Origin: a virus
Virus record (IMG/VR): IMGVR_UViG_3300025816_000008
Coordinates: 1 to 64,000 of that record
Reading direction: 5' to 3' (one strand)
DNA length: 64,000 nt
Positions 4,535 to 47,415 of this stretch are shown here, in pieces. Position numbers and translations under genes: made by a program. Below the pieces are notes generated by a model. It had not been told where the DNA came from. It saw nothing but the letters and a program-made list of their open reading frames with translations, and made no database searches. The first letter of the stretch is position 1, and every line of letters starts with the position of its first letter.

Positions 4535-5438
4535 ACCAAACCTTTGCCCACTTAAATTCTTTATTGATTATATGTATGAATGCAGTTTTCTCAGGAACAA
4601 AATTAAAATTGTCCATGAACCAATGCCACTTTCTATTTATTTTATTAATTTTAACATTATTTTCATAGCATTTTACTGCAAACAATGTTTCATTATCCCA
4701 TCCAAATATTTCTTGAATATACTTAGGCCATAATGAAAATTCGTCTTCTCTTAATTCCGTCATTATCTCTAAGTACTCATCAAACTTATCAAAATAATTT
4801 AACTCTTCTAGTTGTGTTTTTGTTATGCCAACGATACCGGTATTAAACACACATATTTCTTTCGGAGCTTGAAATGTTAATTCTTGCATCATTGCCCTTG
4901 AATTCCAGTATTTAGCAGTAGGACTTCTTACACTTGCATATTTTCTTCCATCTAAACGATCAGCTTCTAATCTGCGTATAGTATCCGGATTATCTAATTC
5001 ATCCTGCACGCCTATAGCATAAGGTCTTTCGGCTCTAATAACTATTCCGGCTGTTAAATTCCATGCATCAAAAAAATTCTCTTTCGTAATAGGAAGAACA
5101 TCAAGATCTAAATATAATATTTCTTCAAATTCTTCTTTAAGAACGTACATAAGATGAATTTTATAAAAATTAACAATGTTATACGTAGTTAAGAATGGAT
5201 ATTTTCGTTTATATTCACTATCAAATGCTTTCCATTGATCATCATATTGATATAATCTATATTCTATTCCAATAGAATCGGCGTATGATCTTTGTCTTTC
5301 AGCTAACCAGTTTTTATATAGAGCAAATTCTCTTTTTGATTTATCATTTTTAGATTCGGTTTCTCCTTTAAACGGAGGCTGCCAATCTAATTCTTTTTCT
5401 GGTATATCAATATATATGCTAAAGATAATTCTTTTCAT
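4515..5438 (-). CDS. putative glycosyltransferase (GT8-like, DxD), paralogue of downstream gene
   Basis: A 307-residue protein starting MKRIIFSIYID. The metal-binding DxD is at D111-L-D113 in EEILYLDLDVLP; CVFNTGIVGI gives the N-T-G strand, and the C-terminus has AFIHIINKEFKWAK, matching the HxxNKEF of the next gene. Residues 12-50 are an insertion not found in the shorter paralogue. It is the first gene of a two-gene minus-strand unit. A TGATATAAT extended -10 sits just upstream at 5455-5463, and a GAGG site precedes the ATG. It likely transfers a sugar to a phage fibre or host glycan (inference). Confidence 0.7.
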   Translation of the reverse strand: MKRIIFSIYIDIPEKELDWQPPFKGETESKNDKSKREFALYKNWLAERQRSYADSIGIEYRLYQYDDQWKAFDSEYKRKYPFLTTYNIVNFYKIHLMYVLKEEFEEILYLDLDVLPITKENFFDAWNLTAGIVIRAERPYAIGVQDELDNPDTIRRLEADRLDGRKYASVRSPTAKYWNSRAMMQELTFQAPKEICVFNTGIVGITKTQLEELNYFDKFDEYLEIMTELREDEFSLWPKYIQEIFGWDNETLFAVKCYENNVKINKINRKWHWFMDNFNFVPEKTAFIHIINKEFKWAKVWYEKNCL

Positions 5439-6161: not shown

Positions 6162-6701
6162 ATGGTTAACAAAAAATTTACAACTGCATTATATGGCAGT
6201 TTAAAAAGACTAGTATGGGCAGATCATTTTTATGAAGGAGATTTATCCTTTTTAAATAACAGCTTTGATTCACCAGGAAAAGTTCTAGAATATTTACCGG
6301 TGTACGAATATATGTTTAATCAAAATAATAAATTCTATGTTGGCGATTTAGACCCTGAAGATATAAACGATTATCAATACAATCATTCATATGATTTAGT
6401 ACAAAAATATTTAAAACCTAATCCATATTACCGTGAAAAATATATAACTTCTTCTTGGATATTAGCAAGTGATAATAAAAATAATAAAGATCCTGCATAT
6501 TTAAAAAAAGTTCTTCAAGTTAAAGCAGAATTAGTTGATGTAATTGATTTAGGTGATAGTCGGAATTTTGACAATGTAAGTGAAATAATTAGGAAAATTA
6601 AAATTATTCAACAATCAAAATGCTATATCGGATCCTATGGATCTTGGGAAAATATTACGCGAATATACAATAAGCCGATTGCAGTATTATACCCCACGTG
6701 A
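6162..6701 (+). CDS. GT-B/heptosyltransferase-like fragment or small glycan-related protein
   Basis: A 179-residue protein with a good site (GAAAGGATATAAAA before ATG). The C-terminal segment CYIGSYGSWENITRIYNKPI resembles the donor-binding loop of family 9-type glycosyltransferases (C-h-I-G-s-x-S-x-x-x-H-h-A-x-h-x-x-x-P). The N-terminal half (ALYGSLKRLVWADHFYEGDL) also resembles the start of phage GT9-like proteins. It is too short for a full GT-B enzyme, so it may be a truncated or single-domain relative. It converges on the radical-SAM gene with a 15-nt overlap. Confidence 0.45.
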   Translation: MVNKKFTTALYGSLKRLVWADHFYEGDLSFLNNSFDSPGKVLEYLPVYEYMFNQNNKFYVGDLDPEDINDYQYNHSYDLVQKYLKPNPYYREKYITSSWILASDNKNNKDPAYLKKVLQVKAELVDVIDLGDSRNFDNVSEIIRKIKIIQQSKCYIGSYGSWENITRIYNKPIAVLYPT

Positions 6702-7721
6702 TATCGTTGTTCCATCAACTGAATCTAAATACCAAACTTCTATTAAATTAATTAAATTTTCGGCTTCACTATAGTTACGATAACCTTTAACTTTTTTAAT
6801 CTCTTTATTTAAATATAAAATAATTTTTTGTAAATCCTTAGAAGAAGAATGTTTTATCGTGACATGCGTTGGATATAGAACTGTGTTATACCATAAAGTG
6901 CAATTATGTTTTTCAGTGAATCGTACAAATTCAATCATTTCTTCCCAATTCATGTTCATTGGATTTACCATAATTGAAAGATTTCTTTTGTTACTATGAC
7001 AATATTCTTTAAATATTTTAAAATATTTCATTAGTGTATCAAAAGAACCGTTTATACGAATTTCTTCATATCTTCGAGGTATTAAACTGTCTATACTAAT
7101 GTTTAAATGGATATTGCATTTATCAAGAATACCTTGAACTCTTTTGTTATAAACCGTTCCATTTGTCGCAATGTTAACCTTCAATTCCGGTTTTAATTCT
7201 CCAACAATATCAAGAAGATCGAGCAATATTTTTTGCGCAAAAGGTTCACCGCCGTTTACTCTCAACTCTGTGAGGTGTGGTATAAATTCTTTCATTTGTT
7301 CTAAAAACGTATTATCAAAGATTTGCGGTAATGGTGGAAGCTTATCTCTGTTCTTTCGAATACCACTACTTAAAATTCCACTACACATAATACATTCTAG
7401 ATTGCATTGATTGCTTAATTCAATTTCCATCATGGAAGGCATATTATTTACTGGATAATTCTGATATGCTTTTGCAAGAGGCCATACGCCGTCATCAATA
7501 TCTTTTTTACATTCAATACATCTATTTAAAAATTTATTTTCCTGTAAAGCATCTCGATATTTCTGGAACTTATCACCTTTCCATATATCCATTAGTGATC
7601 TGTCTTTGCCCCACATATCACACGATCCTGGAAGTTTCCAACAAGGAGCTACTCTACCAGTAAGTTGAATATACATGTTATTGAAAGGTGCATTACATGG
7701 TGTTGTTTGACCGTAACTCAT
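6687..7721 (-). CDS. radical SAM protein with N-terminal twitch/SPASM-like [Fe-S] domain
   Basis: A 344-residue protein. Residues 1-90 form a twitch/SPASM-like domain with Cys at 9, 27, 68 and 71 for an auxiliary cluster. The radical SAM core follows, with the CxxxCxxC motif at C106-C110-C113 (CNLECIMC), the GGEP motif at 157-160 (ELRVNGGEPF), and the NIATNGT and ISIDS strands of the TIM barrel. Known members generate a 5'-deoxyadenosyl radical; the auxiliary cluster usually binds a substrate or relays electrons. It is the last gene of the long minus-strand operon and starts 29 nt inside the preceding radical-SAM gene. Substrate unknown. Confidence 0.85.
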   Translation of the reverse strand: MSYGQTTPCNAPFNNMYIQLTGRVAPCWKLPGSCDMWGKDRSLMDIWKGDKFQKYRDALQENKFLNRCIECKKDIDDGVWPLAKAYQNYPVNNMPSMMEIELSNQCNLECIMCSGILSSGIRKNRDKLPPLPQIFDNTFLEQMKEFIPHLTELRVNGGEPFAQKILLDLLDIVGELKPELKVNIATNGTVYNKRVQGILDKCNIHLNISIDSLIPRRYEEIRINGSFDTLMKYFKIFKEYCHSNKRNLSIMVNPMNMNWEEMIEFVRFTEKHNCTLWYNTVLYPTHVTIKHSSSKDLQKIILYLNKEIKKVKGYRNYSEAENLINLIEVWYLDSVDGTTISRGV

Positions 7722-8814
7722 TTTCTAATATCTCATTCCATTTAGGAAACGCTGTTGCAAAATCATTGTTTCTCATTTTATCATATTTAGTTATATGAGC
7801 ATAAAACTTATTTATGTGGTTTTCTCCGTCAAGCATCATGCGTCTCATGATTTTTTTTATTCTTTCATCTTGAGTATCTTTAAATTTATTGCAAATAATT
7901 TCTTTTACATCTATTGGTAAATTAGCTATGTTTAAATATGAAGGACTTTCTACATATTGAATTGATACCGGTGTGTTGAAATCATCTGCATATTCTAAAA
8001 ATTCATCGATGTAATATATATTATACCAATTCATGGTGCAGTTAAACATGATTTTACCATAAAAGTTTTTTGTAAATTTGATAAAGTTTTTTTCAATAAT
8101 ATTAAAATCAGATCCTTCTCTTTGATAATCATTTCTTTCGTAAATATCATCTAAACTAATTCGAATATCTAAATTAGATAAAGATTTTAATTGATTTACA
8201 AACTTATCATTCCAATGCGTGCCATTTGTTACCATTAAAGTTTTAATTTTATTAAGACCATGTTTATCAATATAAGTCATAATCTTTTTAATTTCTTCGT
8301 TTACAAAAGGTTCTCCACCCGCAAAAAGAATATATTTAGCGTCATTCAACCATTCATTTACGATTGGCTCATGATGTGTATCTATGATTTTGTGTTTTAG
8401 AAAATGTTTACGTACTTCAATTGTTTCAGTTTCTTTTGCTATTTGACTTGAATTAAATGATCCGCACATCCTACATTTTAAATTGCAAACATTTGTAGTT
8501 TTAAATTCAAAATATATTGGATTATCTTCTACTATAGGAGAGTTAAATTTTTTATCTTTGGCCCATCCATTAATTACACTTCTTAAACTTTCATTGCCTG
8601 ATTCTTCAGCAGTCCAACAGTCAGAACATGCTGCAGGTTTTTCATCATTTAAAAATTGAGTTCTTAAATCTTGAAAGTTTTGATTGTTCCAGCCTTCATC
8701 TATTCTTTCATTATCTAAATTTGATAAAGGTGTTTTATATCGACAACACGGGAGTAGTACCCCTCTTGGATCTATAGAAATATGAGTGAACGGAGCAGCG
8801 CAGAAATTTTTCAT
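7693..8814 (-). CDS. radical SAM protein with N-terminal twitch/SPASM-like [Fe-S] domain
   Basis: A 373-residue protein. I start it at 8814 because that ATG forms an ATGA overlap with the upstream stop and the auxiliary-cluster Cys begin right after it; the frame is open 16 codons further. Cys 5, 23, 24, 63 and 66 form the N-terminal twitch/SPASM-like site (CAAPF ... LPCCRYK ... CSDCW). The radical SAM motif is CNLKCRMC (C110, C114, C117), followed by ILFAGGEPF and LMVTNGTHW. It shares domain order with the downstream gene, so the two are paralogues. It may act on a peptide, sugar or small molecule; nothing in the sequence decides this. Confidence 0.85.
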   Translation of the reverse strand: MKNFCAAPFTHISIDPRGVLLPCCRYKTPLSNLDNERIDEGWNNQNFQDLRTQFLNDEKPAACSDCWTAEESGNESLRSVINGWAKDKKFNSPIVEDNPIYFEFKTTNVCNLKCRMCGSFNSSQIAKETETIEVRKHFLKHKIIDTHHEPIVNEWLNDAKYILFAGGEPFVNEEIKKIMTYIDKHGLNKIKTLMVTNGTHWNDKFVNQLKSLSNLDIRISLDDIYERNDYQREGSDFNIIEKNFIKFTKNFYGKIMFNCTMNWYNIYYIDEFLEYADDFNTPVSIQYVESPSYLNIANLPIDVKEIICNKFKDTQDERIKKIMRRMMLDGENHINKFYAHITKYDKMRNNDFATAFPKWNEILENELRSNNTM

Positions 8815-9203
8815 CTTTCGACAGTACAATGCTTTTTGCAAACATGTGGAGCGGTGTTCCAATCTTCTCTTAATTCTTCTAATTCATTATACCAATCAGA
8901 ATTTAAAATTTGTAAAATACTTTTATTATCTAGATTATATTCATCTTCATTTTCTATATATGTTTTATACATTGGATTACGATCTTCAACTCCAGTAGCA
9001 ATAGCTTCAGAATTTTGTAAACCGTTTTGTATAGATTCTTGATCGGTATTTCTAGGATCAATAGTTCCTTTCTTAGGATAACCAAATTGTTTTGCAACAT
9101 ATATTGTATTTGCAAAAAAACAACAAGGATAGACTTGACCATCTGGGTTTACGTTATATTCATTATTATTAAAGAAAGAACATCTTATTTCTTTAGTTTT
9201 CAT
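8811..9203 (-). CDS. free-standing SPASM-like iron-sulfur domain protein
   Basis: A 130-residue protein with no radical SAM motif. It contains C8, then PDGQVYPCCFF with C27-C28, and ends in C122-x3-C126 (HVCKKHC). The pattern C-x(n)-G-x-(V/I)-x-P-C-C-x(n)-C-x3-C is the signature of SPASM/twitch auxiliary cluster domains, which are normally fused to a radical SAM core. Here it is a separate gene, coupled by ATGA overlaps on both sides to radical-SAM genes. I infer that it works in trans with the core encoded immediately upstream (9200-9946). Confidence 0.65.
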   Translation of the reverse strand: MKTKEIRCSFFNNNEYNVNPDGQVYPCCFFANTIYVAKQFGYPKKGTIDPRNTDQESIQNGLQNSEAIATGVEDRNPMYKTYIENEDEYNLDNKSILQILNSDWYNELEELREDWNTAPHVCKKHCTVER

Positions 9204-9946
9204 ACTAGTATCCTTTTTGCTTCAAGCAAATTGTCTGTTTCTTTTGTTAGAAGCAATTCAGTAAATTTTGTAATTTTTTCTGGAGCGTATAAAGTTTCTA
9301 CTTTATCTTCGTACACGAATTTAAATGGGTCTAAGTTTCTATTGAATCTATTTGACGGACAAATATACATGTAGCAAGCACCATTGTCGTATGCTAATTT
9401 TGCTATTTTTTTAATATCATTTTCATTATGTTTAAATACCACAGTATATACTTTTGCCTCTGAGCCTGATTCAGTAAAAGCTTTCATATGAAGTAGAACT
9501 TTATCGAGTTCAGTTTTTCTTCTATAAGTGGCATGCTGTTCTTGAGTAGCTCCATCTATAGCAAAGACTACAGTTAGTCTGAGATTATATTTATAATTTA
9601 AGGTTCCTAAATTCCACCAAAATTCTTCATTTCTCATACTGCCATTTGTATTAATTAAAATTTTAACTCGTCTTGAACTTTCTAAAATATATGTAATTAT
9701 TTCTAAAATATCTTTATTCATCATTGGATCACCCCATGTACCACATAGGATAATTTGTTTGTACAAATAAAAATCTCGTGTAGGGAATCTTTTTTGAAAG
9801 GTTTCCAATGACCATTGTACAAGAGGAAGCCAATAGTTTTTCTTAGAAATATCTTCTTGATCTGTTCTATGGCATTGTGGACATGCAGCATTACAATAAG
9901 TAGATAAATCGACCATTGGTTTTAGTCTCTTTATTTTATAAGGCAT
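9200..9946 (-). CDS. radical SAM core protein (lacks fused SPASM domain)
   Basis: A 248-residue protein. The radical SAM motif CNAACPQC is at C18-C22-C25, unusually close to the N-terminus. The expected GGEP position reads IILCGTWGDPMMN, the C-G-x-x-x-D-P-x-M-N variant shared with the paralogue at 10213-10827. Further shared segments are VVFKHNENDI and PSNRF. There is no C-terminal Cys-rich region; the SPASM-like domain is supplied by the next gene, with a 4-nt ATGA overlap. Likely an adenosyl-radical enzyme of unknown substrate. Confidence 0.8.
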   Translation of the reverse strand: MPYKIKRLKPMVDLSTYCNAACPQCHRTDQEDISKKNYWLPLVQWSLETFQKRFPTRDFYLYKQIILCGTWGDPMMNKDILEIITYILESSRRVKILINTNGSMRNEEFWWNLGTLNYKYNLRLTVVFAIDGATQEQHATYRRKTELDKVLLHMKAFTESGSEAKVYTVVFKHNENDIKKIAKLAYDNGACYMYICPSNRFNRNLDPFKFVYEDKVETLYAPEKITKFTELLLTKETDNLLEAKRILV

Positions 9947-9947
9947 A

Positions 9948-10241
9948 TCATTTCTTTCTTTTAAGTCTGGTGATTTCTTTTATTTTATCACCATTACAAT
10001 AAATATAACAAATCTTTGCACCATTGCCATGTTTTAATTTATTATAAAAATTAATCCATTCTTTTGATTCTATTACATCTTCAATCTTTTCAATGTTAGT
10101 TAACTTAAACTTTTCTTTGACAAGATCTTTCATATCACCTTCAAAAAGTTCAGGACGGTCGGCCCAACAACACGGTAATATATATCCACGAGCAGTGTGA
10201 CCTAATTGATGATCAGCATTTAGACATTTTGGAACTACCAT
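9948..10241 (-). CDS. free-standing SPASM-like iron-sulfur domain protein
   Basis: A 97-residue protein with C6, a Gly-Tyr-Ile-Leu-Pro-Cys-Cys segment (C24-C25) and a C78-x3-C82 pair near the C-terminus, before a basic tail. This is the same C ... PCC ... C-x3-C pattern as the 130-residue protein at 8811-9203, and no radical SAM motif is present. It begins 29 nt inside the upstream radical-SAM core gene and ends 1 nt before the next core gene. The order core-SPASM-core-SPASM implies one pair for each core. Partnership is inferred from order and coupling. Confidence 0.6.
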   Translation of the reverse strand: MVVPKCLNADHQLGHTARGYILPCCWADRPELFEGDMKDLVKEKFKLTNIEKIEDVIESKEWINFYNKLKHGNGAKICYIYCNGDKIKEITRLKRKK

Positions 10242-10827
10242 AATTTCTTTCTATATAATACTTAGTTGGTTTATAAGAATCATTTTTAACAAACCGACTA
10301 GATTTTACTAATTCAAATTTAATATTATAATGTTTAGCTATATTTTCGCAATTTTCTATATCATTTTCATTGTACTTAAATACTATATATCTCCATGTAG
10401 AGTTGAGTCCCATCGATGCACATAACTTCATTGCTTCGAATAATGCTTCTCCGTCTTGGTTAATACGATATTTGTGACTATCTTCGGGGTATCCATCTAA
10501 ACCAAATATCCATGTTGCATTTTTATTTGCGTTAAATGCCTTTTCATACCATGATATTTTTTTACCTGTTGCTGCATTATGCACTTCACAGAAAATATTT
10601 TTTTCATAATTTAATTTTAGAAAATTAATAAGGTTTGGATTCATTACAGGATCAGAAGCATTGCCACAAAAAATTATAGAATCAAAGTAATTAATGATTT
10701 TTTTATATTCGTGTAAAGATAAATCACAACCTGGAACTTTTAAATTATTAGTTCTATAAGTTTTTCTTAAACACTTAGAGCATTCTAAAGTACACTTATG
10801 ACTTATACACAAATTAATTGATTTCAT
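10213..10827 (-). CDS. radical SAM core protein (lacks fused SPASM domain)
   Basis: A 204-residue protein when started at the ATG at 10827, which begins MKSINLCISHKCTLECSKC and lies 4 nt after the nitroreductase stop; a start 20 codons earlier would overlap that gene. The cluster motif is C12-x3-C16-x2-C19. The GGEP position is IIFCGNASDPVMN, and IVFKYNENDI and KSSRF match the paralogue at 9200-9946. It is small for a radical SAM enzyme and has no auxiliary-cluster Cys of its own. It pairs with the SPASM-like gene overlapping its 3' end. Confidence 0.8.
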   Translation of the reverse strand: MKSINLCISHKCTLECSKCLRKTYRTNNLKVPGCDLSLHEYKKIINYFDSIIFCGNASDPVMNPNLINFLKLNYEKNIFCEVHNAATGKKISWYEKAFNANKNATWIFGLDGYPEDSHKYRINQDGEALFEAMKLCASMGLNSTWRYIVFKYNENDIENCENIAKHYNIKFELVKSSRFVKNDSYKPTKYYIERNYGSSKMSKC

Positions 10828-10831
10828 AAGA

Positions 10832-11512
10832 TTAAATAACTTTTGAAATATCAACGGACAAGATATGTTTTCGCATACTATTTCCATCTTTAACTATTAT
10901 TTTTTTAGACATTTTTGGAAATATAAAACTTGAATCAAAATGATGTTCACGACTATTTCTTGCATGATCTTCGAATCCTACTCCTACCATAAGTAATACT
11001 TCTTCTCCAAACATTTCTTTTATTTCTGGCATACTATGTTGTGCGTTATAAAAACCTGTTTTATAACCAAGAAGATGTGCAGTAAGTGTAAGGTATGCAG
11101 AAGCTATCCCCACTGCTCTACCTTCATCAAGTAAAGCTCCAGGATTTAATTTAATATTTTTACCATCAGTAATCCCCATAGCGTATTCAACTTCTGTTCT
11201 AGGTTTTTCTGAATAATCTCTATCGCGAATAAACACTACAAGCAAATTAGCCATGATTTGAGAATTAGTAACAGCTAAGCGAGGGTCGAATTGATAAACA
11301 AAAGACTTAGTAGTTTCTAATATATATTCTATAACATCGCTGTCTGTAATAAACACAGGACTATAGAACACTCTGTTTTGTTTAGAAGGACATTCTTTAA
11401 CAGCGGTTTTTAATATATCAATATGTTCTGCTGGAATTTTTTTTGTTAAATCCCAATTTCTTTGACAGTGTTGAGATTCTTTAATTATCCTCTTTAAATC
11501 TAGATTGTTCAT
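10832..11512 (-). CDS. nitroreductase-family flavoprotein
   Basis: A 226-residue protein. The N-terminus (ESQHCQRNWDLTKKIPAEHI ... AVKECPSKQN) has the R-N/S-x-R-x-F-like and P-S-x-x-N pattern of FMN-binding nitroreductases, and AVGIASAYLTLTAHLLGYKT is the conserved helix of the family, followed by G-F-Y. Members are FMN enzymes using NAD(P)H to reduce nitro groups, quinones, enones or flavins. The ATG at 11512 is preferred over the upstream TTG because it overlaps the desaturase stop as ATGA and has GGAT upstream. It may supply reduced flavin or act on an intermediate in the operon pathway (inference). Confidence 0.75.
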   Translation of the reverse strand: MNNLDLKRIIKESQHCQRNWDLTKKIPAEHIDILKTAVKECPSKQNRVFYSPVFITDSDVIEYILETTKSFVYQFDPRLAVTNSQIMANLLVVFIRDRDYSEKPRTEVEYAMGITDGKNIKLNPGALLDEGRAVGIASAYLTLTAHLLGYKTGFYNAQHSMPEIKEMFGEEVLLMVGVGFEDHARNSREHHFDSSFIFPKMSKKIIVKDGNSMRKHILSVDISKVI

Positions 11513-12249
11513 ATTTTTATCCAATTTATGATTTTAGCTTGCAAGTCGAATTCCCACCATTGTTCACCATGAGTATATTTTTTTTGATTTGCGTGATGGT
11601 TATTATGCCAACCATCGCCTAATGTTAAAATGCTAACTAAAAAAGAATTATATGAATGATCTAACGTATCGTGATTTCTATATCCCCATTTATGAACAAT
11701 TATGCTACCTAACATTGTATTAGTAAAAACAACTGTTATTGGTATACAGAAGAATATTATTAATCCAATTAAACCACTGATGCTGGTAATAATAAAGCCC
11801 CATAGTAATAATAAATATATGTAGTTGTTATGAACAAATATTTGAATTTTATCGTGTATTAAATCTCTTAATGTTTTAAATCCTACTGGTTTTTTCCCTA
11901 AATATGTACAAAGCCATATGCTCAATATAGAATGATGATGTGGACTTTGTGAATCTTCTAAAGTGTCTGAAGTTTTATGATGGTGTCTATGTAATGCAAC
12001 CCATGATAGTGGAGAACCTAAAGCACACGGAATACTTATAAAAATTAACACGATTTCAGTAATTCTGGACACAGTAAAGCCTCGATGAGCAAAATATCTA
12101 TGTAAAGAAACACCTTGTCCAATAACATGAAAAAATAATCCGACGATTAATCCATATATTAAATATTTAAAATCAAATGTAAATAATGCAAATGCAGTAG
12201 CGACATGGGATACTAACCATATTAGTCTTAAAACATATAAAGAAATCAT
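11509..12249 (-). CDS. membrane fatty-acid desaturase (delta-9/acyl-lipid type)
   Basis: A 246-residue protein with all three His boxes of membrane diiron desaturases: HRYFAH at 50-55, HRHHH at 87-91 and HNNHH at 215-219 (LGDGWHNNHH). Hydrophobic segments at about 8-45, 65-85 and 142-185 give four membrane spans. Known enzymes of this class insert a cis double bond into acyl chains using O2 and electrons from ferredoxin or cytochrome b5; no b5 domain is fused, so a separate carrier is needed. It is paralogous to the protein at 13821-14600 (shared HRY-x-x-HR, LGSP, CTYLGK/STYLGK). ATGA overlaps couple it to the peroxiredoxin upstream and the nitroreductase downstream. Confidence 0.9.
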   Translation of the reverse strand: MISLYVLRLIWLVSHVATAFALFTFDFKYLIYGLIVGLFFHVIGQGVSLHRYFAHRGFTVSRITEIVLIFISIPCALGSPLSWVALHRHHHKTSDTLEDSQSPHHHSILSIWLCTYLGKKPVGFKTLRDLIHDKIQIFVHNNYIYLLLLWGFIITSISGLIGLIIFFCIPITVVFTNTMLGSIIVHKWGYRNHDTLDHSYNSFLVSILTLGDGWHNNHHANQKKYTHGEQWWEFDLQAKIINWIKI

Positions 12250-12656
12250 AATTTTAATTTTTTTAATGTTAAAAGAACATCATTGACATGGCCATCAACA
12301 TTTACGTTTCTCCATTCGTATGCTATTTCTGATTTTTCATTTATTAAAAATGTAGATCGGTTTTCTACTTTAAATGCCTCTTTAGCAATTTTATTACTAT
12401 CGCATAAAAGTGGTATAGTTAATGAATATTTTTTTGCAAAATCATTATGACTTTCAATACTATCTTTAGATACACCAACAACTATAGTGTCGAGTTTTTT
12501 AAAATCATCTAAAGAATTTTCAAATTCTATGCTTTCACGTGTGCAGTGCGGCGTATCATCTTTAGGATAGAAAAATAAAACTAACCATGAAGGCCTTATA
12601 TCTTTAAGATATAAGTACTGGCCATGATTACTTAATAGCTTAATATCAGATATCAT
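12246..12656 (-). CDS. peroxiredoxin (Bcp/PrxQ-like)
   Basis: A 136-residue thioredoxin-fold protein. The active site FFYPKDDTPHCTRES has the peroxidatic Cys in the Bcp/PrxQ context (PxxxTxxCT, with His in place of the usual Gly before Cys). The resolving Cys often found five residues later is absent, so it may be a 1-Cys type or use the Cys in LLCDSN. VVGVSKDSIESHNDFAKKY and RSTFLINEKSEI are the usual family segments. It probably removes H2O2 or lipid peroxides made during O2-dependent desaturation and hydroxylation, as suggested by its place among desaturase and oxygenase genes. Confidence 0.85.
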   Translation of the reverse strand: MISDIKLLSNHGQYLYLKDIRPSWLVLFFYPKDDTPHCTRESIEFENSLDDFKKLDTIVVGVSKDSIESHNDFAKKYSLTIPLLCDSNKIAKEAFKVENRSTFLINEKSEIAYEWRNVNVDGHVNDVLLTLKKLKL

Positions 12657-12664
12657 AATTAATC

Positions 12665-13126
12665 CTATTCAGTTTCTGCAGATTCAAATATTGTGATTGC
12701 AATTCTAGTTTCTGTTATATCGTATATATTATGAAACTTGCTTAGGTCTAAAAAATACCATTGTTTTTCAGGTAATACAACTCTTTCAATTTCGTTTTTA
12801 TCATCGTCAAACCAAACTGTACTAACATTTTCTCCGCCGCTTTTAATAATATAATTAAAAGCTGCAGCTCTACCCTTATCTTTATGTATTAATAATTCTC
12901 TAGTAATAAGTTGTATTTTTATTTTCATATTATTTGCAAAATGTGGAGACAAATAATCTATAATTGCAGAGCTAGGTTGATGTAAAGAATACCATGGAAT
13001 TTCGTAATTTTCTCCATCTCTAGCTTCAAAAGTATTAATAGTCGTTCTAACATTTTCTTCGGTTATTTGATTTACAAGATTTTGTGGAAGATCCGGTAAG
13101 TCTGGATAATGTGTGTATAATCCCAT
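12665..13126 (-). CDS. putative 2OG/Fe(II) oxygenase-like cupin protein (short)
   Basis: A 153-residue protein. The C-terminal half has a double-stranded beta-helix pattern: H81-K-D83 (ELLIHKDKGR), a proximal NYII strand, then LDLSKFHNIY with H132 and R141 (TETRIAITIF). H-x-D ... H ... R is the metal and 2-oxoglutarate ligand set of Fe(II)/2OG dioxygenases. It is shorter than most, as seen for phage versions. It starts on the last base of the sulfotransferase stop (TAATG) with AAAGGA upstream. Substrate unknown. Confidence 0.55.
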   Translation of the reverse strand: MGLYTHYPDLPDLPQNLVNQITEENVRTTINTFEARDGENYEIPWYSLHQPSSAIIDYLSPHFANNMKIKIQLITRELLIHKDKGRAAAFNYIIKSGGENVSTVWFDDDKNEIERVVLPEKQWYFLDLSKFHNIYDITETRIAITIFESAETE

Positions 13127-13821
13127 TATAATATCCTTTTTTTAAAAATTTCTTTGATTTCATTTATATTTTTTATATAGTATTCTTTAGAAAATTCTAA
13201 ATTTAATTTATGAATATGTTCGTAATAGATACTAAACTTTCTAGTATTTATTCCATTTATTTCTAAATACTGTATTGGATCAATAGATAATTTTTCATAA
13301 TTAAGTATTATTGGATTTGATATGCTCAATATATAATTTTTATCTTTTTGCCATTGCTCTTCTATTTGAAAAAAGTTTAATGCATATTCAATTGGACATA
13401 CAAACGGTGGTATAATGTGTTTTTCATTATTTTTTTTATTCCATACATCACTGTGAAATGCTAAAATATAAGAGAGATATTGATCGTATTTGTTTTCTCT
13501 ATCAAGAAGAATTATATCATAATTCTTGACTATAAATTTTATTATTCTAAGATTTAAATGAGTAGAAATAATTTTAATAGTATTTTTACAATTATATTTT
13601 TTTAATAAATTTATTCTATATTCAATTTCTTCATTTAATGGAAAATATTCTCTATTACTTTTTAATAATCTTTCGCCGTTATCAATAGAACTCCAACCTG
13701 GATATACAGTATTAAAAAATTCATCATTTAATTTAATATTATAATCAGACGAAAAATCACGTAGCATCCTGAAAAGAAAAGTACTACCTGATCTCATTGG
13801 TGAAATTATAGCATAAGTCAT
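13126..13821 (-). CDS. putative sulfotransferase
   Basis: A 231-residue protein. The N-terminal IISPMRSGSTFLFRML (residues 5-20) is the PAPS 5'-phosphosulfate loop of Stf0/LPS-type sulfotransferases, and IILLDRENKYDQYLSYILAF is the 3'-phosphate-binding strand and helix. The rest is Lys-, Ile- and Asn-rich helices. It overlaps both neighbours by 1 nt (TAATG). Sulfation of a lipid, glycan or protein is possible; lying between a desaturase and an oxygenase, it may act on the same product (inference). Confidence 0.7.
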   Translation of the reverse strand: MTYAIISPMRSGSTFLFRMLRDFSSDYNIKLNDEFFNTVYPGWSSIDNGERLLKSNREYFPLNEEIEYRINLLKKYNCKNTIKIISTHLNLRIIKFIVKNYDIILLDRENKYDQYLSYILAFHSDVWNKKNNEKHIIPPFVCPIEYALNFFQIEEQWQKDKNYILSISNPIILNYEKLSIDPIQYLEINGINTRKFSIYYEHIHKLNLEFSKEYYIKNINEIKEIFKKRIL

Positions 13822-14600
13822 TAATCTGATTTTATTAATTTAACAAAATATTTTCCTAAATCGAATTCTCCAGGTTTATGATCCATATGCCATGAATTAG
13901 GATAGTGATGATGGTTGTTATGCAAAAACCCTCCCCAACTATACCAGCATAGTAGATAAGACATTAATCGTCTATTAGTAGAATTATCTTTTCTTTCAAA
14001 ATTCTTATACCCTTTGTCATGTTTGTCTGTGTGGTGTACTAATACTACGTTTAGCAAACTAAAACTATGAATAGTTATTACAGTTCCATAAATCATTCCA
14101 AACACAGCAATAGGCCACCAGATAATTAGTAATGTAATAAATGTTGTCCAATAGATTTTATAGAAGTTTCTATCTAGCCACATAACATACGAATCACGCA
14201 TCACATCTCTTGCTTGAAAAACGTTTATTTGTTCAAGCTTTCCCAAATATGTGCTATATAAACTAGATTTTATCAATCCGCTATTAGGGCTATGTGGGTC
14301 ATCATCAGTATCAGCGTGTGCGTGATGTTTTCGGTGCATGCATACAAAAAATATAGGAGATCCCAAGCCAGAAATAGAACCAAGGTATAATACAATCCTC
14401 TTTGTCCATTCTTTCATTTTAAATGATCGATGTGTTAAATACCTATGAAATCCAAGTTCAAAACCAAACTGGGAAGTTAATAAGTAGAAAAAAATTCCAA
14501 AACTTATGTAATGCCAATTATCGAATAATACTGGTAATGTGGAAAGCATTATAAGATGAACTGGAAAAAATATCTTTTTAGCATATTGCGTAAATTTCAT
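13821..14600 (-). CDS. membrane fatty-acid desaturase (delta-9/acyl-lipid type)
   Basis: A 259-residue protein when started at the ATG at 14600, which has GAGG 9 nt upstream; a second in-frame ATG at 14606 is only 3 nt from that site. His boxes HRYLTH, HRKHH and HNNHH are at 54-59, 91-95 and 229-233 (numbered from 14606). Hydrophobic spans at about 15-48, 72-90 and 152-188 fit a four-helix desaturase. FKMKEWTKRI, LGSP and STYLGK align with the paralogue at 11509-12249. It uses O2 and an external electron donor. The start lies inside the preceding oxygenase gene. Confidence 0.9.
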   Translation of the reverse strand: MKFTQYAKKIFFPVHLIMLSTLPVLFDNWHYISFGIFFYLLTSQFGFELGFHRYLTHRSFKMKEWTKRIVLYLGSISGLGSPIFFVCMHRKHHAHADTDDDPHSPNSGLIKSSLYSTYLGKLEQINVFQARDVMRDSYVMWLDRNFYKIYWTTFITLLIIWWPIAVFGMIYGTVITIHSFSLLNVVLVHHTDKHDKGYKNFERKDNSTNRRLMSYLLCWYSWGGFLHNNHHHYPNSWHMDHKPGEFDLGKYFVKLIKSD

Positions 14601-15288
14601 TTTCATTTTCCTCGTCTTCTAGTTGTCTTATATTAAACATCTTATCGCCATTTTGGATGAGTTTATCTGACGCTAATTGAAAAGATAAATTCACACGAGT
14701 TTCGTCATAAGGATTTGCAACAAAATGCGGTAAACAACTATTTAAATAATATGCATATCCTGGTTCTAACACATACACACCAAATTTTTCATTGATACTA
14801 TTTTTAACAAACACGTGATATTTTGTACTAATAGGTATATGGATTTTAAATCCATGAACTTCACAATTTAAATTATCTATATGTGGTTTAAGTCGTTTTT
14901 TCGGAGCAGCGCACATATATTGTTGCCTAAATGTTGGTCCAAAAGATTCAAGCACAGATTTAGTATTTTTCATTACTTCATCTTTTAAAATATTTGTGCC
15001 AAATTTACGTAATGAATACGAAATATAGTCGTTGCCATTCCAGCCTAATTTCACTAGATGTTTTTTTACTTCTTTTGGTGTAGCATCTATTAATATATCT
15101 TCAAGAGAATTTAAGAAATTATTTTCCAAGCTTTTAAAGGTATTGATGTATTCCTCAAAAAGTATGGCGGTGTTAAACGGCCCAGCGATACTAACTACTG
15201 CTGGATACTTTAAGTAATCACCAGTCACATTAACTGGAATTGTCTCGAAATCACCAATCGGCACAATATCATTTTTTAAGGTATCCAT
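14578..15288 (-). CDS. aspartyl/asparaginyl beta-hydroxylase-like 2OG/Fe(II) oxygenase
   Basis: A 236-residue protein. The catalytic fold starts with KKRLKPHIDNLN (H136-x-D138), continues HGFKIHIPI and PGYAYYLNSCLPHFVANP (H188), and closes with DETRVNLSFQL (R198). This H-x-D ... H ... R order, together with the PGxxxxxN-x-x-x-H segment, is typical of the aspartyl/asparaginyl beta-hydroxylase family, which hydroxylates Asp/Asn side chains or free amino acids. The first 120 residues are family-specific. GGAG lies 10 nt before its ATG. Confidence 0.75.
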   Translation of the reverse strand: MDTLKNDIVPIGDFETIPVNVTGDYLKYPAVVSIAGPFNTAILFEEYINTFKSLENNFLNSLEDILIDATPKEVKKHLVKLGWNGNDYISYSLRKFGTNILKDEVMKNTKSVLESFGPTFRQQYMCAAPKKRLKPHIDNLNCEVHGFKIHIPISTKYHVFVKNSINEKFGVYVLEPGYAYYLNSCLPHFVANPYDETRVNLSFQLASDKLIQNGDKMFNIRQLEDEENENEIYAIC

Positions 15289-15884
15289 ATTATGTGATCT
15301 CCGTATTTTTTATAACTTCTTTCTAATAAATCAAAGTGTTGTTTTTTATCTAGCCATATATGTAAAAACATAATGTATCTATTTGGATCATATATACTAT
15401 TCCAATGCCATATGTTTGTGTGCCCCATGACATACCAGTCAGTATCTTCAGGCAGTTCTGGATGAAAAACATTTTCACCTACTTCAATAGCTAAAGGATT
15501 TTTCACTTCTCCTTGTAAAATCATTCTGTATCCACATGGCTCACATTCAAGATTATGTTTATATAGATCAGGATTAACTTCAGGGTAAAAGAAATCTAAA
15601 TGTCTATGTTGTGGTCCTGCAGAATCCATTCTGTGAATTTTTACATTTACTAATTCTTTAATGGGTATATGTTGTTTTAAGTATTCCTTGAGCTTAAGTT
15701 GATTAACAGACATAGAATCTATCCATTTTGATTTACCATAATCTTTGCGTTTTTCAGTAAATCGCTGTAAACCATGAGCAAAAGGAATAGATTGTTCAAC
15801 ATATTCGTCGACAATAAACTTACTAAATTTAAATTTTGGGATGTCTACTGGCATCCATGCTATTTTAGAAAAATCAATATTCAC
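15276..15884 (-). CDS. 2OG/Fe(II) oxygenase-like protein (paralogue of 17198-17830)
   Basis: A 202-residue protein with a GTG start supported by AGGA 7 nt upstream. Metal ligands are H95-L-D97 (PQHRHLDFFYPE) and H160 (GHTNIWHWNS), with R169 (DPNRYIMFLHIW) for 2OG. It is paralogous to the protein at 17198-17830: both begin with an IDFxxIAxxPxDxP segment and end with a KYGD segment (LLERSYKKYGD here, LLTRSLEKYGD there). Substrate unknown. It overlaps the downstream gene start by 13 nt. Confidence 0.65.
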   Translation of the reverse strand: MNIDFSKIAWMPVDIPKFKFSKFIVDEYVEQSIPFAHGLQRFTEKRKDYGKSKWIDSMSVNQLKLKEYLKQHIPIKELVNVKIHRMDSAGPQHRHLDFFYPEVNPDLYKHNLECEPCGYRMILQGEVKNPLAIEVGENVFHPELPEDTDWYVMGHTNIWHWNSIYDPNRYIMFLHIWLDKKQHFDLLERSYKKYGDHIIWIP

Positions 15885-16608
15885 CGGTTAATCCTGTCTC
15901 TGATCTAAATTTGTCACTAAATGTTCCCCAAATTTTCATGCTAACTGCTAGATGGTTTATAGCATCGGCGCCGTGATAATCTCGCTCATTAAAAAAACAT
16001 GATGTGGAGGTAATATTAATTTTTTTATTTGTATCAGTATCGTATATAAAGAATGATTTTTCTGGAGTTATTTTAAACCATAGAAATTCTGACTTATGAA
16101 ACTGATCATCTGGCGTATGTTTATCAGCGTGAATCACTGTAGGATTCATTGATTCCACTATATAAAATACAACTTTTTTAATAGTTTTAAATGGCAAACA
16201 TTTAGACCATTCTACTAATTCAGGAAACAATTTTGCGTTTTCTGTCCAGTCACCCTTTTCCCATAATACTAATGTACTAAACGGCTGGCTTCCGCCCATT
16301 AATTTAAGAAATATTCGTTGTTGTTCTGGCTCTAGTTTGGTGTATATATTTTTACATTCTGATGAATCATCCATACTTATAATTTCGTTATTCTTAGGAA
16401 AAAGAGGAACTAATGGCTTTCCAACATAATTTACTATATTATGCAAGTCATTGGGATCAAGAAACTCAAACTCTGAATTAAAATATTCAGAAACGTACGG
16501 CTTACTTTTTGCAATACCTTCGTATATTTTAAGTCTAAGGGAATCTAATTTTGTTGCGTTAGTATATTCATCAGCGTTAAAGTATGACTTGCCTAAAATA
16601 CCTTTCAT
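15874..16608 (-). CDS. 2OG/Fe(II) oxygenase-like protein, unusual 2OG site
   Basis: A 244-residue protein. NPTVIHADKHTP gives H160-A-D162, a middle strand KSEFLWFKIT follows, and FFNERDYHGAD gives H212. The strand where an Arg normally binds 2-oxoglutarate reads NHLAVSMKIWG, with no Arg; Lys225 or another residue may substitute, or activity may differ. The AAGGAG site is well placed. Coupled overlaps join it to the GNAT-like gene upstream and the oxygenase downstream. Call rests on fold-like pattern and neighbours. Confidence 0.55.
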   Translation of the reverse strand: MKGILGKSYFNADEYTNATKLDSLRLKIYEGIAKSKPYVSEYFNSEFEFLDPNDLHNIVNYVGKPLVPLFPKNNEIISMDDSSECKNIYTKLEPEQQRIFLKLMGGSQPFSTLVLWEKGDWTENAKLFPELVEWSKCLPFKTIKKVVFYIVESMNPTVIHADKHTPDDQFHKSEFLWFKITPEKSFFIYDTDTNKKINITSTSCFFNERDYHGADAINHLAVSMKIWGTFSDKFRSETGLTGEY

Positions 16609-17201
16609 AATATCTCCTTCAATGCAAAATTATAATTGCTGTTAATTTTATAATAGAAAATAGTTTGTAGCGTATTGTTAAATAATACTGGCTTATTAAA
16701 ATATTCAAACTTTCCTAATAGAGGTTTGTTTTTATTTGATTTGCGTTTTTTTAAATAATTACTAAACACTTTAAGAGTTTTATTATGTTCATATATTGTA
16801 AAAAATATAGCTTGTTTGTTTATATTTTTAGCATAATCAAGATGCTGATCTATTACTCCATCTTTATGCCATGTATAATTGTTTGCTATCTGCCGGAATT
16901 CAAACAAAGAATACCGATGCATTAAGATTCTAACGCTATTATTGTGTATTGCAGCGCCAGATATACCAACGATCTGATCGTTAATCTTAATAGCTTCTAT
17001 ACAATCAAAATAAGTTTTATCCCATTTCTTGTTACTAAACTTATAGATCTCCTCGATAAACTTGTTATTATAAAACTTGTTAACAAGTTCGTTATAAGAA
17101 AAATCTATGCTAGCCGATGCGCCTAGTTCATTATAAACCTTATGTCTAAAATGTGTTAGGTCAAAATCCCATTTATCATAATATCTCTCTATTGTTATCA
17201 C
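16605..17201 (-). CDS. GNAT-like acyltransferase (weak)
   Basis: A 198-residue protein with a GTG start that overlaps the upstream TGA as GTGA. CIEAIKINDQIVGISGAAIHNNSVRILMH resembles the beta4-beta5 region of GNAT N-acyltransferases, and FFTIYEHNKTLKVFSNYLKK looks like the later helix, but the acetyl-CoA loop (Q/R-x-x-G-x-G/A) is not clear. The C-terminus is rich in Lys, Asn and Phe. It could be an acyl or acetyl transferase acting with the oxygenases around it, or an unrelated alpha-beta protein. Confidence 0.4.
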   Translation of the reverse strand: MITIERYYDKWDFDLTHFRHKVYNELGASASIDFSYNELVNKFYNNKFIEEIYKFSNKKWDKTYFDCIEAIKINDQIVGISGAAIHNNSVRILMHRYSLFEFRQIANNYTWHKDGVIDQHLDYAKNINKQAIFFTIYEHNKTLKVFSNYLKKRKSNKNKPLLGKFEYFNKPVLFNNTLQTIFYYKINSNYNFALKEIL

Positions 17202-17830
17202 TTTAAATCAGATCTTTTAACTAAGTAATCTCCGTATTTTTCTAAACTTCTTGTTAAAAGATTTTGATGTTTTTCTATATCTATATATCCATTTGTAATT
17301 ATAATAATTCTATCGGATTGAAAATCAACACCATGAACTTGATCAGTGTATGGCATTGCATAGACGTCAGTAGTTTCTGGTAAAATTGGATAAATCCTAT
17401 CTTCGATTTTACTATCTACGCTTTTTGAAACGTATACAGTATTTTTTCTTTCTCCTGATATAACTAGTCTATATGAACTTGGTTCATTTTTCTTTAAATG
17501 ATCAAAAACATCGGGTCTTCTATTTGGATCTTGATAATCGACATGAGGATGAACTACGTCTTTTGATTTCATCATTTTTGCATGGATATAATCAGTAAAA
17601 GGTATATGGTCAATCATCCATTGTTTAAGTTCAGGATATTTTTCTATTATTTCTTGTGTCCATTTATCAGTAGGTTCAAAGTTTTTTGTTTTTTCAAACA
17701 ACCGGATCGCATCCCACCAGCCATAGACAAACTCGGTTTCAAAATTCTTAATTATAGAATGTTTATTAGGAATTAAAGGTAAATCTATCGGAAGAAATGC
17801 AATATCTAAAAAATCTATGTTGTTAGTCAT
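17198..17830 (-). CDS. 2OG/Fe(II) oxygenase-like protein (paralogue of 15276-15884)
   Basis: A 210-residue protein. Predicted ligands are H96-V-D98 in VVHPHVDYQDP, H166 in QVHGVDF and R174 in SDRIIIITNG, the order of Fe(II)/2OG dioxygenases. The N-terminal IDFLDIAFLPIDLP and C-terminal LLTRSLEKYGD match the paralogue two genes downstream, so an ancestral gene was duplicated and then separated by the GNAT-like and oxygenase genes. AAGGA lies 10 nt before the ATG. Confidence 0.65.
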   Translation of the reverse strand: MTNNIDFLDIAFLPIDLPLIPNKHSIIKNFETEFVYGWWDAIRLFEKTKNFEPTDKWTQEIIEKYPELKQWMIDHIPFTDYIHAKMMKSKDVVHPHVDYQDPNRRPDVFDHLKKNEPSSYRLVISGERKNTVYVSKSVDSKIEDRIYPILPETTDVYAMPYTDQVHGVDFQSDRIIIITNGYIDIEKHQNLLTRSLEKYGDYLVKRSDLK

Positions 17831-17836
17831 TTTCGA

Positions 17837-18568
17837 TTAGTCCTTTATATCTAAAACTTCACTAATTACTTCTTGACTATCAATACTAATAATTAAATGA
17901 TCACGCGCTGTCGGCCCGTTATTTACTGCGTAATGTTTATAACCAGGATTAATAAACCACACTGATCCGTCTGCAGGAATATGATATTTTATTTCATTTC
18001 CATCTTTATCAAATCCACCATTATAACACTCTTTATTAGTATCAACTGCGATGTGCAATCTAATGCCGTATTGAGTATCGTAATCGATGTGAGGTTTAAT
18101 ATTGCTTCCAGCTTGTAAACGTGCAAATCGTGTTCTATGTGCTCCATTAAACATGCCGAAAATCTCGCGCATGTATTCAGGAACGTCATCTTTCATTTTA
18201 CGATACCAGCGCTCATCTGCTACAGGGTCACCTTTTGCAATTCTATTGTCCCATACGGTGTTTGATTTTTCTTCGCGCTGGGATAAGTCATACGACTTGT
18301 CAAATTCAACAAGACTTAATTGTTGATAACTAGCATCTTCCCAATTAAGCTCTGTAATACAATCGACGCTTTTTAATTCGTCTTCATTAAAAAACATTTT
18401 TGGTAGTTTAGTATGGGTTTCACACATATGTTGATAATCAAATCCAAGGCCATCCCAGGTTTTACCTTCTGAAAATTGAGCTAACTCATCTTTAAGTCTT
18501 TTAATGTCAATTTGTATATCCAGTTTCTTAAGCACCGGTAATTCATTTCTTTTTTTCCACTTTTTCAT
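17837..18568 (-). CDS. aspartyl/asparaginyl beta-hydroxylase-like 2OG/Fe(II) oxygenase
   Basis: A 243-residue protein with the clearest hydroxylase pattern in the cluster. FARLQAGSNIKPHIDYDTQ gives H160-I-D162, GIRLHIAVDTN is the next strand, DGSVWFINPGYKHYAVNNG gives H212, and TARDHLIISID gives R222. This matches the aspartyl/asparaginyl beta-hydroxylase family (PF05118-type): known members hydroxylate Asp/Asn in proteins or small amino-acid derivatives. The N-terminal 140 residues are charged and of unknown role. GGAG precedes the ATG. It follows the desaturase gene after 21 nt. Confidence 0.8.
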   Translation of the reverse strand: MKKWKKRNELPVLKKLDIQIDIKRLKDELAQFSEGKTWDGLGFDYQHMCETHTKLPKMFFNEDELKSVDCITELNWEDASYQQLSLVEFDKSYDLSQREEKSNTVWDNRIAKGDPVADERWYRKMKDDVPEYMREIFGMFNGAHRTRFARLQAGSNIKPHIDYDTQYGIRLHIAVDTNKECYNGGFDKDGNEIKYHIPADGSVWFINPGYKHYAVNNGPTARDHLIISIDSQEVISEVLDIKD

Positions 18569-18589
18569 TATACATCTCCTATGCGTACG

Positions 18590-19219
18590 TTATTTATTAA
18601 ATAGTTTCTCAGCAAGCCAACCGCCAGTATCAAATTTATGCAGTCTAATTCTTTTCCAATTATCGTGATGGTTTTTATGGTAACCTTCACCCGCAATAAA
18701 TAAATTTAACCAAGGAACGTTTAAAGGACCATTTCCATGTCCAAAAGTGTTTAATAATCCAAAACCAATTTTAGCAAAAATAAAAGGAATTAACGCAAAA
18801 GCAATAAAAAAATACGGAGATATTATATAACTGACTATCCATACTATACACACTATTTTAAACCAATGGTTATGACAAAAAACCAGCTTAGGATTTTTAT
18901 ATAAATCTCGAGCATATTTCGAAGGAATTTTAGGAAGATTCCAAGTAGTAGTTAAAACTTTCCAAAAGCCTACGTATTTTGGAGCATGAGGATCTTTGGG
19001 GCCATCACTATGCTGATGATGCATTCTATGAGATGCTATCCAACCAATAGGAGATTTTATAACTACTATCATTAACATAGCTAATCCAATTGTTTCAAAC
19101 CATCCTGGTACTTTAAATTGTTTATGACAATAGTGACGATGTAGCAGTATACTTGCTGCTAAGTGAGAAATTATTTCACTCCATATTAAACCAATTAATA
19201 TTGCTAATGTTAATTCCAT
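18590..19219 (-). CDS. membrane fatty-acid desaturase, short form
   Basis: A 209-residue protein with His boxes HRHYCH (27-32), HRMHH (64-68) and HKNHH (181-185, GEGYHKNHH). The first hydrophobic segment begins at residue 2, so the usual N-terminal extension is missing; other spans lie at about 42-62 and 122-155. It is more distant from the two other desaturases in this operon and may have a different regiospecificity or substrate. An AAGGA site is present. It is the second gene of the operon, 12 nt after the first. Confidence 0.85.
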   Translation of the reverse strand: MELTLAILIGLIWSEIISHLAASILLHRHYCHKQFKVPGWFETIGLAMLMIVVIKSPIGWIASHRMHHQHSDGPKDPHAPKYVGFWKVLTTTWNLPKIPSKYARDLYKNPKLVFCHNHWFKIVCIVWIVSYIISPYFFIAFALIPFIFAKIGFGLLNTFGHGNGPLNVPWLNLFIAGEGYHKNHHDNWKRIRLHKFDTGGWLAEKLFNK

Positions 19220-19231
19220 TAGTTTATCCTT

Positions 19232-19852
19232 TTAACATCTTTTTAAGTTTTCTAAAATAGAAGTTATGCTATCTTCATTTAGAATAACGTTAAATACTAT
19301 CCAATAACTAGATAATGAAGATGCATTAAATAAAGTATGTTCTTTTAATGTATTTATAAAGTATAAATTACCATGATTCCAGTGTAAGGTTTTGTCACCT
19401 ATCATAAATCTAGTATCAGGCGGGTTACAATTTTCTAAAGGAACTATTAATCTGAATACTTTAACATTTAGTTTGTTTGAATCTCTATGTGCTGGAAAAT
19501 AGCCGCCAGATTCTATTTTTAATACATGAGACCGAAAAATTTTATTTTTCCATGGATCTACGATTAGTTTTAATTCAGGCCATTCAAAAACTGGGGTGGG
19601 AACATTAAAACTAGTTTCTTCCCATGATGTAGAATTTTCAAAGTTATATTCATGAATACTATCTAAATCGGGAATTCCTGTTACGCCACCATCTAAACTA
19701 GTTATGCTTAATCCAAATCTATTATTCTTTTTTCTAGGATTGTATTTAACATAATTAAAATTTTCTTCAGTCCAATTGATAAATTTTTTAGGATTCATTT
19801 TTAATTTAAGTTCTAATTGGTTAGATCCAAATGCTAATAATTTTTCAATCAT
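19232..19852 (-). CDS. 2OG/Fe(II) oxygenase-like protein, first gene of minus-strand operon
   Basis: A 206-residue protein. KIESGGYFPAHRDSNK gives H122-R-D124, KVFRLIVPLENC is the next strand, HWNHGNLYFINTLKEHTLFN gives H172, and SSYWIVFNVI is the final strand, where an Arg would be expected but none is present. The arrangement resembles phage 2OG dioxygenases related to proline/Asp hydroxylases. The predicted sigma70-like promoter lies about 45 nt upstream. The site before its ATG is weak: a GGAG motif lies about 20-25 nt upstream, so the start is less certain; a second Met is at residue 19. Confidence 0.6.
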   Translation of the reverse strand: MIEKLLAFGSNQLELKLKMNPKKFINWTEENFNYVKYNPRKKNNRFGLSITSLDGGVTGIPDLDSIHEYNFENSTSWEETSFNVPTPVFEWPELKLIVDPWKNKIFRSHVLKIESGGYFPAHRDSNKLNVKVFRLIVPLENCNPPDTRFMIGDKTLHWNHGNLYFINTLKEHTLFNASSLSSYWIVFNVILNEDSITSILENLKRC

Positions 19853-20016: not shown

Positions 20017-20406
20017 ATGGCACACTACGAAGATTTATCAATTGACCAGGGAACAGATGTAGTAATTCAGCTTGAACTGTTTAATCCTGATGGTAGTAGA
20101 AAGCAGCTAATTAACTGGGATTCTGACGCTGGCCAATTTGGTGCATTTTATGACATGCGTGGAAAAATCAAAAAAAGTTATAACTCTACTGATTCAGCTG
20201 AAGTATTTTCTTGTACAGCTTTTAATCCAGCTAATCAAGAAAATATTTTACAAATATCATTAACAAATGTACAAACAACCCGTATGAAAGCCGGTAGATA
20301 TGTCTATGATGTCGAATTAGAAGGAATTGATAGTTCAACTGGAATAGGTGTAGTTGAAAGAATATTAGAAGGGAAATTAACACTTTCTCCTCAAGTAACA
20401 ACATAG
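20017..20406 (+). CDS. small virion structural protein, baseplate/fibre adaptor-like
   Basis: A 129-residue protein with GAGGGG before its ATG. The pattern SIDQGTDVVIQLELFNPDGS ... GRYVYDVELEG ... VERILEGKLTLSPQVTT is an immunoglobulin-like beta sandwich seen in small tail proteins of T4-like marine phages, similar to receptor-binding upper-baseplate N-terminal domains. It opens the late adhesion module directly under a late promoter. Exact place in the virion not known. Confidence 0.6.
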   Translation: MAHYEDLSIDQGTDVVIQLELFNPDGSRKQLINWDSDAGQFGAFYDMRGKIKKSYNSTDSAEVFSCTAFNPANQENILQISLTNVQTTRMKAGRYVYDVELEGIDSSTGIGVVERILEGKLTLSPQVTT

Positions 20407-47412: not shown

Positions 47413-47415
47413 TCC

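Follow-up and report, generated by a model that had tools for sequence, protein, structure and literature searches.

The host recognition cluster (HRC) of pelagimyophages is a large hypervariable region on a T4-like backbone, in which GT8 glycosyltransferases and cassettes of radical S-adenosylmethionine (radical-SAM) enzymes were reported, with a proposed role of the glycosyltransferases in surface glycans, according to the sections of the paper that concern this region (Zaragoza-Solas et al. 2020, PMC7029224). A second described system is the radical-SAM cluster of the Campylobacter phages CP220/CPt10, an interchangeable run that includes nucleotide-sugar transferase-like genes (PMC2853527). 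Here, we describe an island of 20 minus-strand open reading frames (ORFs) at positions 6687-19852 of a 64,000-nt stretch (hereafter the window; positions 1 to 64,000) of the virus record IMGVR_UViG_3300025816_000008, which comprises 89,975 nt. Its enzymes belong to two separable, recurrent cassettes rather than to one pathway, i.e., an oxidative module with membrane desaturases and 2-oxoglutarate (2OG) oxygenases, and a radical-SAM cassette.

The island in the host recognition cluster

The backbone of the record is T4-like, as its TerL matches T4-like phages, with 71% identity to C48C1 (Kyanoviridae), the closest TerL found, and 44% to the Pelagibacter phage Mosig (EXVC030M, MT647606). At its left end, the window matches Mosig_00097/98, which adjoin VrlC in Mosig; VrlC itself lies outside the window. 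With gp13- and gp14-like neck genes at 46648-48474, the island falls between the VrlC side and gp13/gp14, and it is accompanied by a fiber-assembly gene (20017), a repeat-rich fiber-like ORF of 4427 amino acids (aa) next to it (20704-33987), and GT8-like genes (3740-5438). The island that the initial annotation had seen as inserted between tail-fiber modules thus occupies no new site: it sits in the pelagimyophage HRC, a hypervariable region that already has a name (the relevant sections of PMC7029224). Fiber genes do form its right flank, whereas the left flank corresponds to the Mosig genes beside VrlC. For this metagenomic record, SAR11 is a candidate host, as suggested by Mosig only.

Apart from its place, the island shares with the described HRC the T4-like backbone, fiber genes, GT8-like transferases and radical-SAM cassettes. 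The sections of PMC7029224 on the region name radical-SAM cassettes, lipopolysaccharide genes and, in a freshwater group only, a desaturase, but describe neither an ordered oxidative module nor a bacterial counterpart. As measured against these sections, location, radical-SAM cassettes and GT8 transferases were known already, while the ordered oxidative module and the two-cassette structure are new; open-access literature searches likewise retrieved no description of the oxidative module. The CP220/CPt10 cluster is more distant. One of its radical-SAM genes is 27% identical to gene g15 of the island (genes are numbered along the run from g1 to g20), yet an amidinotransferase is present, and no desaturases or AspH genes are annotated in the stretch compared.

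Two recurrent cassettes and their bacterial counterpart

Because single-protein scans of the viral collection gave one near-identical contig only, two-member alignments were used as queries, combining the desaturase g2 and the radical-SAM protein g15 with their Mosig homologues. In this way, approximately 155 marine viral loci were recruited and their proteins clustered; gene calls in these loci are mechanical, and many of the contigs are fragments. In relatives, the oxidative module appears as an ordered series of a desaturase, a HisC-like pyridoxal phosphate (PLP)-dependent aminotransferase, one or two TauD oxygenases, an AspH oxygenase, a methyltransferase, a flavin mononucleotide (FMN) reductase, a peroxiredoxin, a second protein with an HxD...H pattern, and a GNAT protein. 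The 43 non-redundant loci recruited by the desaturase carry AspH4 in 36 cases, TauD in 35, the PLP aminotransferase in 34, the methyltransferase in 30 and the FMN reductase in 20. Among the 42 loci recruited by the radical-SAM protein, which serve as a partial control, the corresponding numbers are 3, 0, 1, 0 and 0. Since the latter almost never carry the oxidative module, we distinguish two cassettes rather than one. The commonest same-strand neighbors are desaturase and PLP aminotransferase (22), PLP aminotransferase and TauD (20), and TauD and methyltransferase (19), each in this order. Three or more module genes are present in 35 loci. Fiber genes adjoin 13 of these, and another 12 fall into two contexts that contain replication/nuclease-type genes; one of these two contexts includes a thymidylate synthase gene.

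The radical-SAM cassette contains a SPASM gene, further radical-SAM genes, nitroreductases, a DegT aminotransferase, a carbamoyltransferase, a methyltransferase and glycosyltransferases; in relatives, an epimerase is also found in or beside it. Hence, the view of the initial annotation that these genes are assembled as a pathway holds for the desaturase, 2OG, aminotransferase, methyltransferase and flavin-reductase genes, which are linked and ordered in related phages instead of lying at scattered loci, but not for a single pathway, as the two cassettes usually occur apart. In the window, g2 and the AspH4 gene g3 are adjacent, and parts of both cassettes are merged into one run with extra desaturases and oxygenases.

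A similar arrangement between the same flanks is found in Mosig (genes 00072-00094), where the two cassettes stand back to back and homologues of g1, g2, g14, g15 and g16 are present. Mosig possesses the PLP aminotransferase, TauD, methyltransferase and FMN reductase of the oxidative module, none of which has a match anywhere in the 89,975-nt record, whereas three desaturases and a larger set of 2OG genes distinguish the window. With 76% for g2 and 53% for g1, identity to Mosig exceeds that of TerL (44%), and in C48C1, the corresponding region lacks an island of this kind despite 71% TerL identity. The contrast between g2 and TerL points to lateral transfer of the cassette. Elsewhere in Mosig, by the neck genes (MT647606.1, 39650-44735), four further 2OG oxygenases stand together with a heme oxygenase, a bilin reductase and a ferrochelatase.

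In cellular organisms, the desaturase family of the module was found in only 2 of approximately 85,000 species genomes scanned, and the chemistry may therefore be mainly viral. One of the two is a metagenome-assembled genome (MAG) of a predatory-type bacterium of the Bacteriovoracaceae, whose 118-kb contig JAFMBV010000002.1 (loci L165 and L184) carries the oxidative module, with identities to the viral proteins of 60-61% for the desaturase, 51% for the PLP aminotransferase, 59% and 48% for TauD, 64% for AspH4, 60% for the methyltransferase and 43% for the FMN reductase. Like the viruses, it also encodes radical-SAM and N-twitch radical-SAM proteins; it differs in its chromosomal context, in the fusion of radical-SAM and SPASM in one gene, and in extra B12-type radical-SAM, AsnB-like and membrane proteins. 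The contig further holds genes that we take by sequence to be aroC, aroB, aroA and an RND pump; the module may be mis-binned or an integrated element. The second genome is a Bacteroidetes MAG with a 20-kb contig (DGBH01000176.1, L163) that includes the desaturase and a B12-type radical-SAM gene, matches viral clusters at up to 89% and is probably a phage contig in a bacterial bin. A related genome in the same order as the Bacteriovoracaceae has TauD, AspH4, PLP aminotransferase and GNAT genes together, and others have an N-twitch radical-SAM gene beside a PLP aminotransferase. Several N-twitch radical-SAM genes also occur in Bacteriovoracales (L178-L183) with PLP aminotransferases and small proteins with RR-type N-termini; there, a radical-SAM gene is 60-66% identical to a viral one. 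A desaturase match in 'Acinetobacter phage MD-2021a' (L186, CAKLQH020000002.1) was rejected, as bacterial chromosomal genes (trpA, accD, btuB) are annotated in the stretch examined.

Genes of the run and its flanks

As initially described, the island is a single, almost gapless minus-strand run: its 20 ORFs have a coding fraction of 0.996 and are spaced by -56 to +21 nt, mostly overlapping. The largest gap of 21 nt leaves no room in the run for a precursor gene of a ribosomally synthesized and post-translationally modified peptide (RiPP), which could lie elsewhere in the genome; a RiPP cluster of the radical-SAM/2OG type was rejected on this ground. The genes are as follows.

19232..19852, minus: g1, first gene of the run, AspH-type 2OG oxygenase of the AspH17 family (PF05118 1e-4, at cut-off; 53% to Mosig_00081; HRD at 122)
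18590..19219, minus: g2, membrane desaturase that serves as marker gene for the oxidative module (Pfam FA_desaturase 1.8e-9; 76% to Mosig_00080; three His boxes)
17837..18568, minus: g3, AspH-type 2OG oxygenase of the AspH4 family (PF05118 4.4e-9; AspH4 profile match 100%)
17198..17830, minus: g4, 2OG oxygenase whose family, 2OG14, has no Pfam model (AlphaFold2 (AF2) fold; H96, D98 and H166 invariant)
16605..17201, minus: g5, no function assigned (no Pfam match; best profile match 19%, to family c29)
15874..16608, minus: g6, probable AspH-type 2OG oxygenase (91% profile match to the AspH50 family)
15276..15884, minus: g7, 2OG oxygenase, paralogue of g4 (family alignment A5; profile 100%)
14578..15288, minus: g8, AspH-type 2OG oxygenase (PF05118 21.4 bits, cut-off 22.6; 96.8% by profile to AspH4)
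13821..14606, minus: g9, second membrane desaturase (Pfam FA_desaturase 2e-13; three His boxes)
13126..13821, minus: g10, probable sulfotransferase (Stf0 18.9 bits, below cut-off 22; N-terminal RSGSTFL-type motif)
12665..13126, minus: g11, possible 2OG oxygenase (HKD...H pattern only; AF2 from single sequence, predicted local distance difference test (pLDDT) 48)
12246..12656, minus: g12, peroxiredoxin (AhpC-TSA 1.3e-28)
11509..12249, minus: g13, third membrane desaturase (Pfam FA_desaturase 2.7e-12; three His boxes)
10832..11524, minus: g14, nitroreductase-like flavoprotein (no Pfam match; family profile A8; 23% to Mosig_00093)
10213..10887, minus: g15, radical-SAM core protein (CTLECSKC; below Pfam cut-off; 41% to Mosig_00084)
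9948..10241, minus: g16, stand-alone SPASM subunit, 29-nt overlap with g15 (PF13186 19.1 bits, cut-off 21.5)
9200..9946, minus: g17, radical-SAM core protein (PF04055 2.9e-8)
8811..9203, minus: g18, stand-alone SPASM subunit, 4-nt overlap with g17 (PF13186 4.4e-7)
7693..8862, minus: g19, radical-SAM protein with N-terminal SPASM/twitch domain (NF033640 1.9e-84, above cut-off)
6687..7721, minus: g20, second radical-SAM protein of the g19 type (NF033640 1.6e-40, below cut-off; PF04055 1.3e-10)

The flanking features are:

20017..20406, plus: tail-fiber assembly gene at the border of the island (44% to the gene annotated in C48C1 as 'L-shaped tail fiber protein assembly')
4515..5438, minus: GT8-like glycosyltransferase of the radical-SAM cassette (36% to Mosig_00091, 7.7e-65)
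3740..4534, minus: GT8-like glycosyltransferase of the radical-SAM cassette (27% to Mosig_00091; weak Glyco_transf_8 match)
2646..3263, plus: member of a methyltransferase-annotated family (cluster 18) of the radical-SAM cassette (28% to Mosig_00090; 39% to the L028 member)
2084..2659, plus: cassette protein without assigned function (cluster 32, Mosig_00094 family; 32% to the L128 member)

The giant fiber-like ORF contains 18 DSAY and 17 DSDY motifs and is a possible hydroxylation substrate.

Most enzyme classes named in the initial annotation are borne out. All three desaturases (FA_desaturase 2e-9 to 2e-13) have the complete set of His boxes, the peroxiredoxin is confirmed, and the nitroreductase g14 is supported by its family profile, with PDB matches to flavin nitroreductases/NADH oxidases at 2e-5. 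Six of seven proposed 2OG genes stand. Pfam or profile matches support g1, g3 and g8; g6 is supported by its match to AspH50, whose L009 member matches PF05118 at 1.3e-15, and g4 and g7 by fold and family. The g4 family had no match to AspH4 in profile comparison, and its class was later settled by the AF2 model (pLDDT 88), with a nucleoside-antibiotic hydroxylase (7v4f, E 6.6e-6) as best Foldseek match in the PDB. For g11, the HxD...H pattern hints at a possible seventh. PHROGs returned almost no matches for the 2OG genes of the island. The proposed sulfotransferase g10 is weakly supported, and the GNAT call for g5 is not supported.

The CxxxCxxC motif is intact in all four radical-SAM proteins, of which g17, g19 and g20 exceed the Pfam cut-off and g15 is identified by its Mosig relative; of the two SPASM genes, g18 lies above the cut-off and g16 just below. 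Overlapping radical-SAM and SPASM genes, exemplified by g15 and g16 (9948-10887), recur as approximately 40 distinct viral pairs (the window and loci L083-L161). A programmed frameshift joining both parts was rejected as unneeded, given that the short overlaps of varying length and frame fit ordinary overlapping genes.

Possible products and targets

We tentatively favor the reading that the island is a laterally exchanged phage biosynthetic gene cluster in the HRC of a T4-like pelagiphage-type virus, which would supply an oxidized building block that probably ends up in a surface glycan. In this proposal, the desaturases and 2OG/Fe oxygenases of the oxidative cassette probably hydroxylate and desaturate a small substrate, and the peroxiredoxin may provide protection beside these oxygen-dependent enzymes. 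The radical-SAM cassette, represented here by two split radical-SAM/SPASM pairs, two N-twitch radical-SAM proteins, the nitroreductase, and the adjacent methyltransferase and GT8 transferases, would add further steps and probably makes and attaches the modified unit. The neighboring glycosyltransferases could then place this unusual building block on a glycan at the surface of the infected cell or the virion and thereby alter receptor recognition. That the gene order persists in different phage backgrounds implies that one product is selected for, and the GT8-like, methyltransferase, epimerase, DegT aminotransferase and carbamoyltransferase genes that accompany the radical-SAM cassette of relatives argue for a glycan. 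Several points weigh against this proposal. Recruitment by the module's own genes inflates the raw co-occurrence counts; the oxygenases match free-amino-acid, nucleoside-pathway and protein hydroxylases alike, so that no enzyme reveals the substrate; and membrane desaturases normally act on lipids. Moreover, lacking the PLP aminotransferase, TauD, methyltransferase and FMN reductase, the pathway of the window would be either a divergent or a decayed form of the common one, and the two cassettes, which usually occur apart, need not yield a joint product. Sequence cannot decide whether the product is a lipid, a protein or a small molecule, and the other targets considered are, in falling likelihood, protein, lipid and DNA.

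It appears somewhat unlikely that virion proteins are the target, with the enzymes hydroxylating or crosslinking, for example, residues of the neighboring giant tail fiber and so changing its binding or stability. The island abuts the fiber-assembly gene and the repeat-rich fiber, some AspH-family and radical-SAM/SPASM enzymes are known to act on proteins and peptides, and fiber genes adjoin the module in the 13 loci mentioned above; yet its occurrence in the same order beside replication/nuclease-type genes in 12 of the 35 loci weakens a fiber target, as does the bacterial contig with no phage fibers nearby, and the PLP aminotransferase, FMN reductase and glycosyltransferases suit metabolites better. 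An editing of host lipids, in which desaturases and LpxO-like hydroxylases would alter the fatty acids of the infected cell or its lipid A, is unlikely, even though the PF05118 family also includes the lipid A hydroxylase LpxO, the membrane desaturase profile matches acyl-CoA desaturases at 2e-15, and lipid desaturases are known in cyanophages (Roitman 2018, as cited in a passage of PMC11480375). No acyl carrier, acyltransferase or lipid synthase gene is among the Pfam matches of the run, its best AspH relatives are small-molecule hydroxylases, and the PLP aminotransferase, TauD, nitroreductase and radical-SAM partners would be left unexplained.

Known phage pathways for base hypermodification include radical-SAM, aminotransferase, glycosyl- and carbamoyltransferase genes, and one module context contains the thymidylate synthase gene. 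Nonetheless, hypermodification of phage DNA bases is highly improbable here, as the Pfam and PHROG matches of the 20 genes comprise no base hydroxymethylase, TET/JBP-like oxygenase or base kinase, the 2OG members are AspH-like, and base chemistry has no place for membrane desaturases. Finally, the genes could form no pathway at all, but a loose heap of independent accessory genes, as might be expected from a variant that mixes cassettes without several core genes in a region known as hypervariable (the same sections of PMC7029224); the strong pairwise conservation of order in several contexts and the bacterial counterpart render this quite improbable.

SAR11 bacteria and their phages rank among the most abundant marine life forms, and most genes of the HRC are without known function. 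The cultured phage Mosig, together with the bacterial counterpart, makes the module directly testable. Returning to the biosynthetic reading, it is possible, if still doubtful, that this mobile oxidative/radical cluster, shared by marine and especially SAR11 phages and nearly absent from sequenced bacteria, constitutes a viral natural-product pathway that remodels the surface of the infected cell or the virion.

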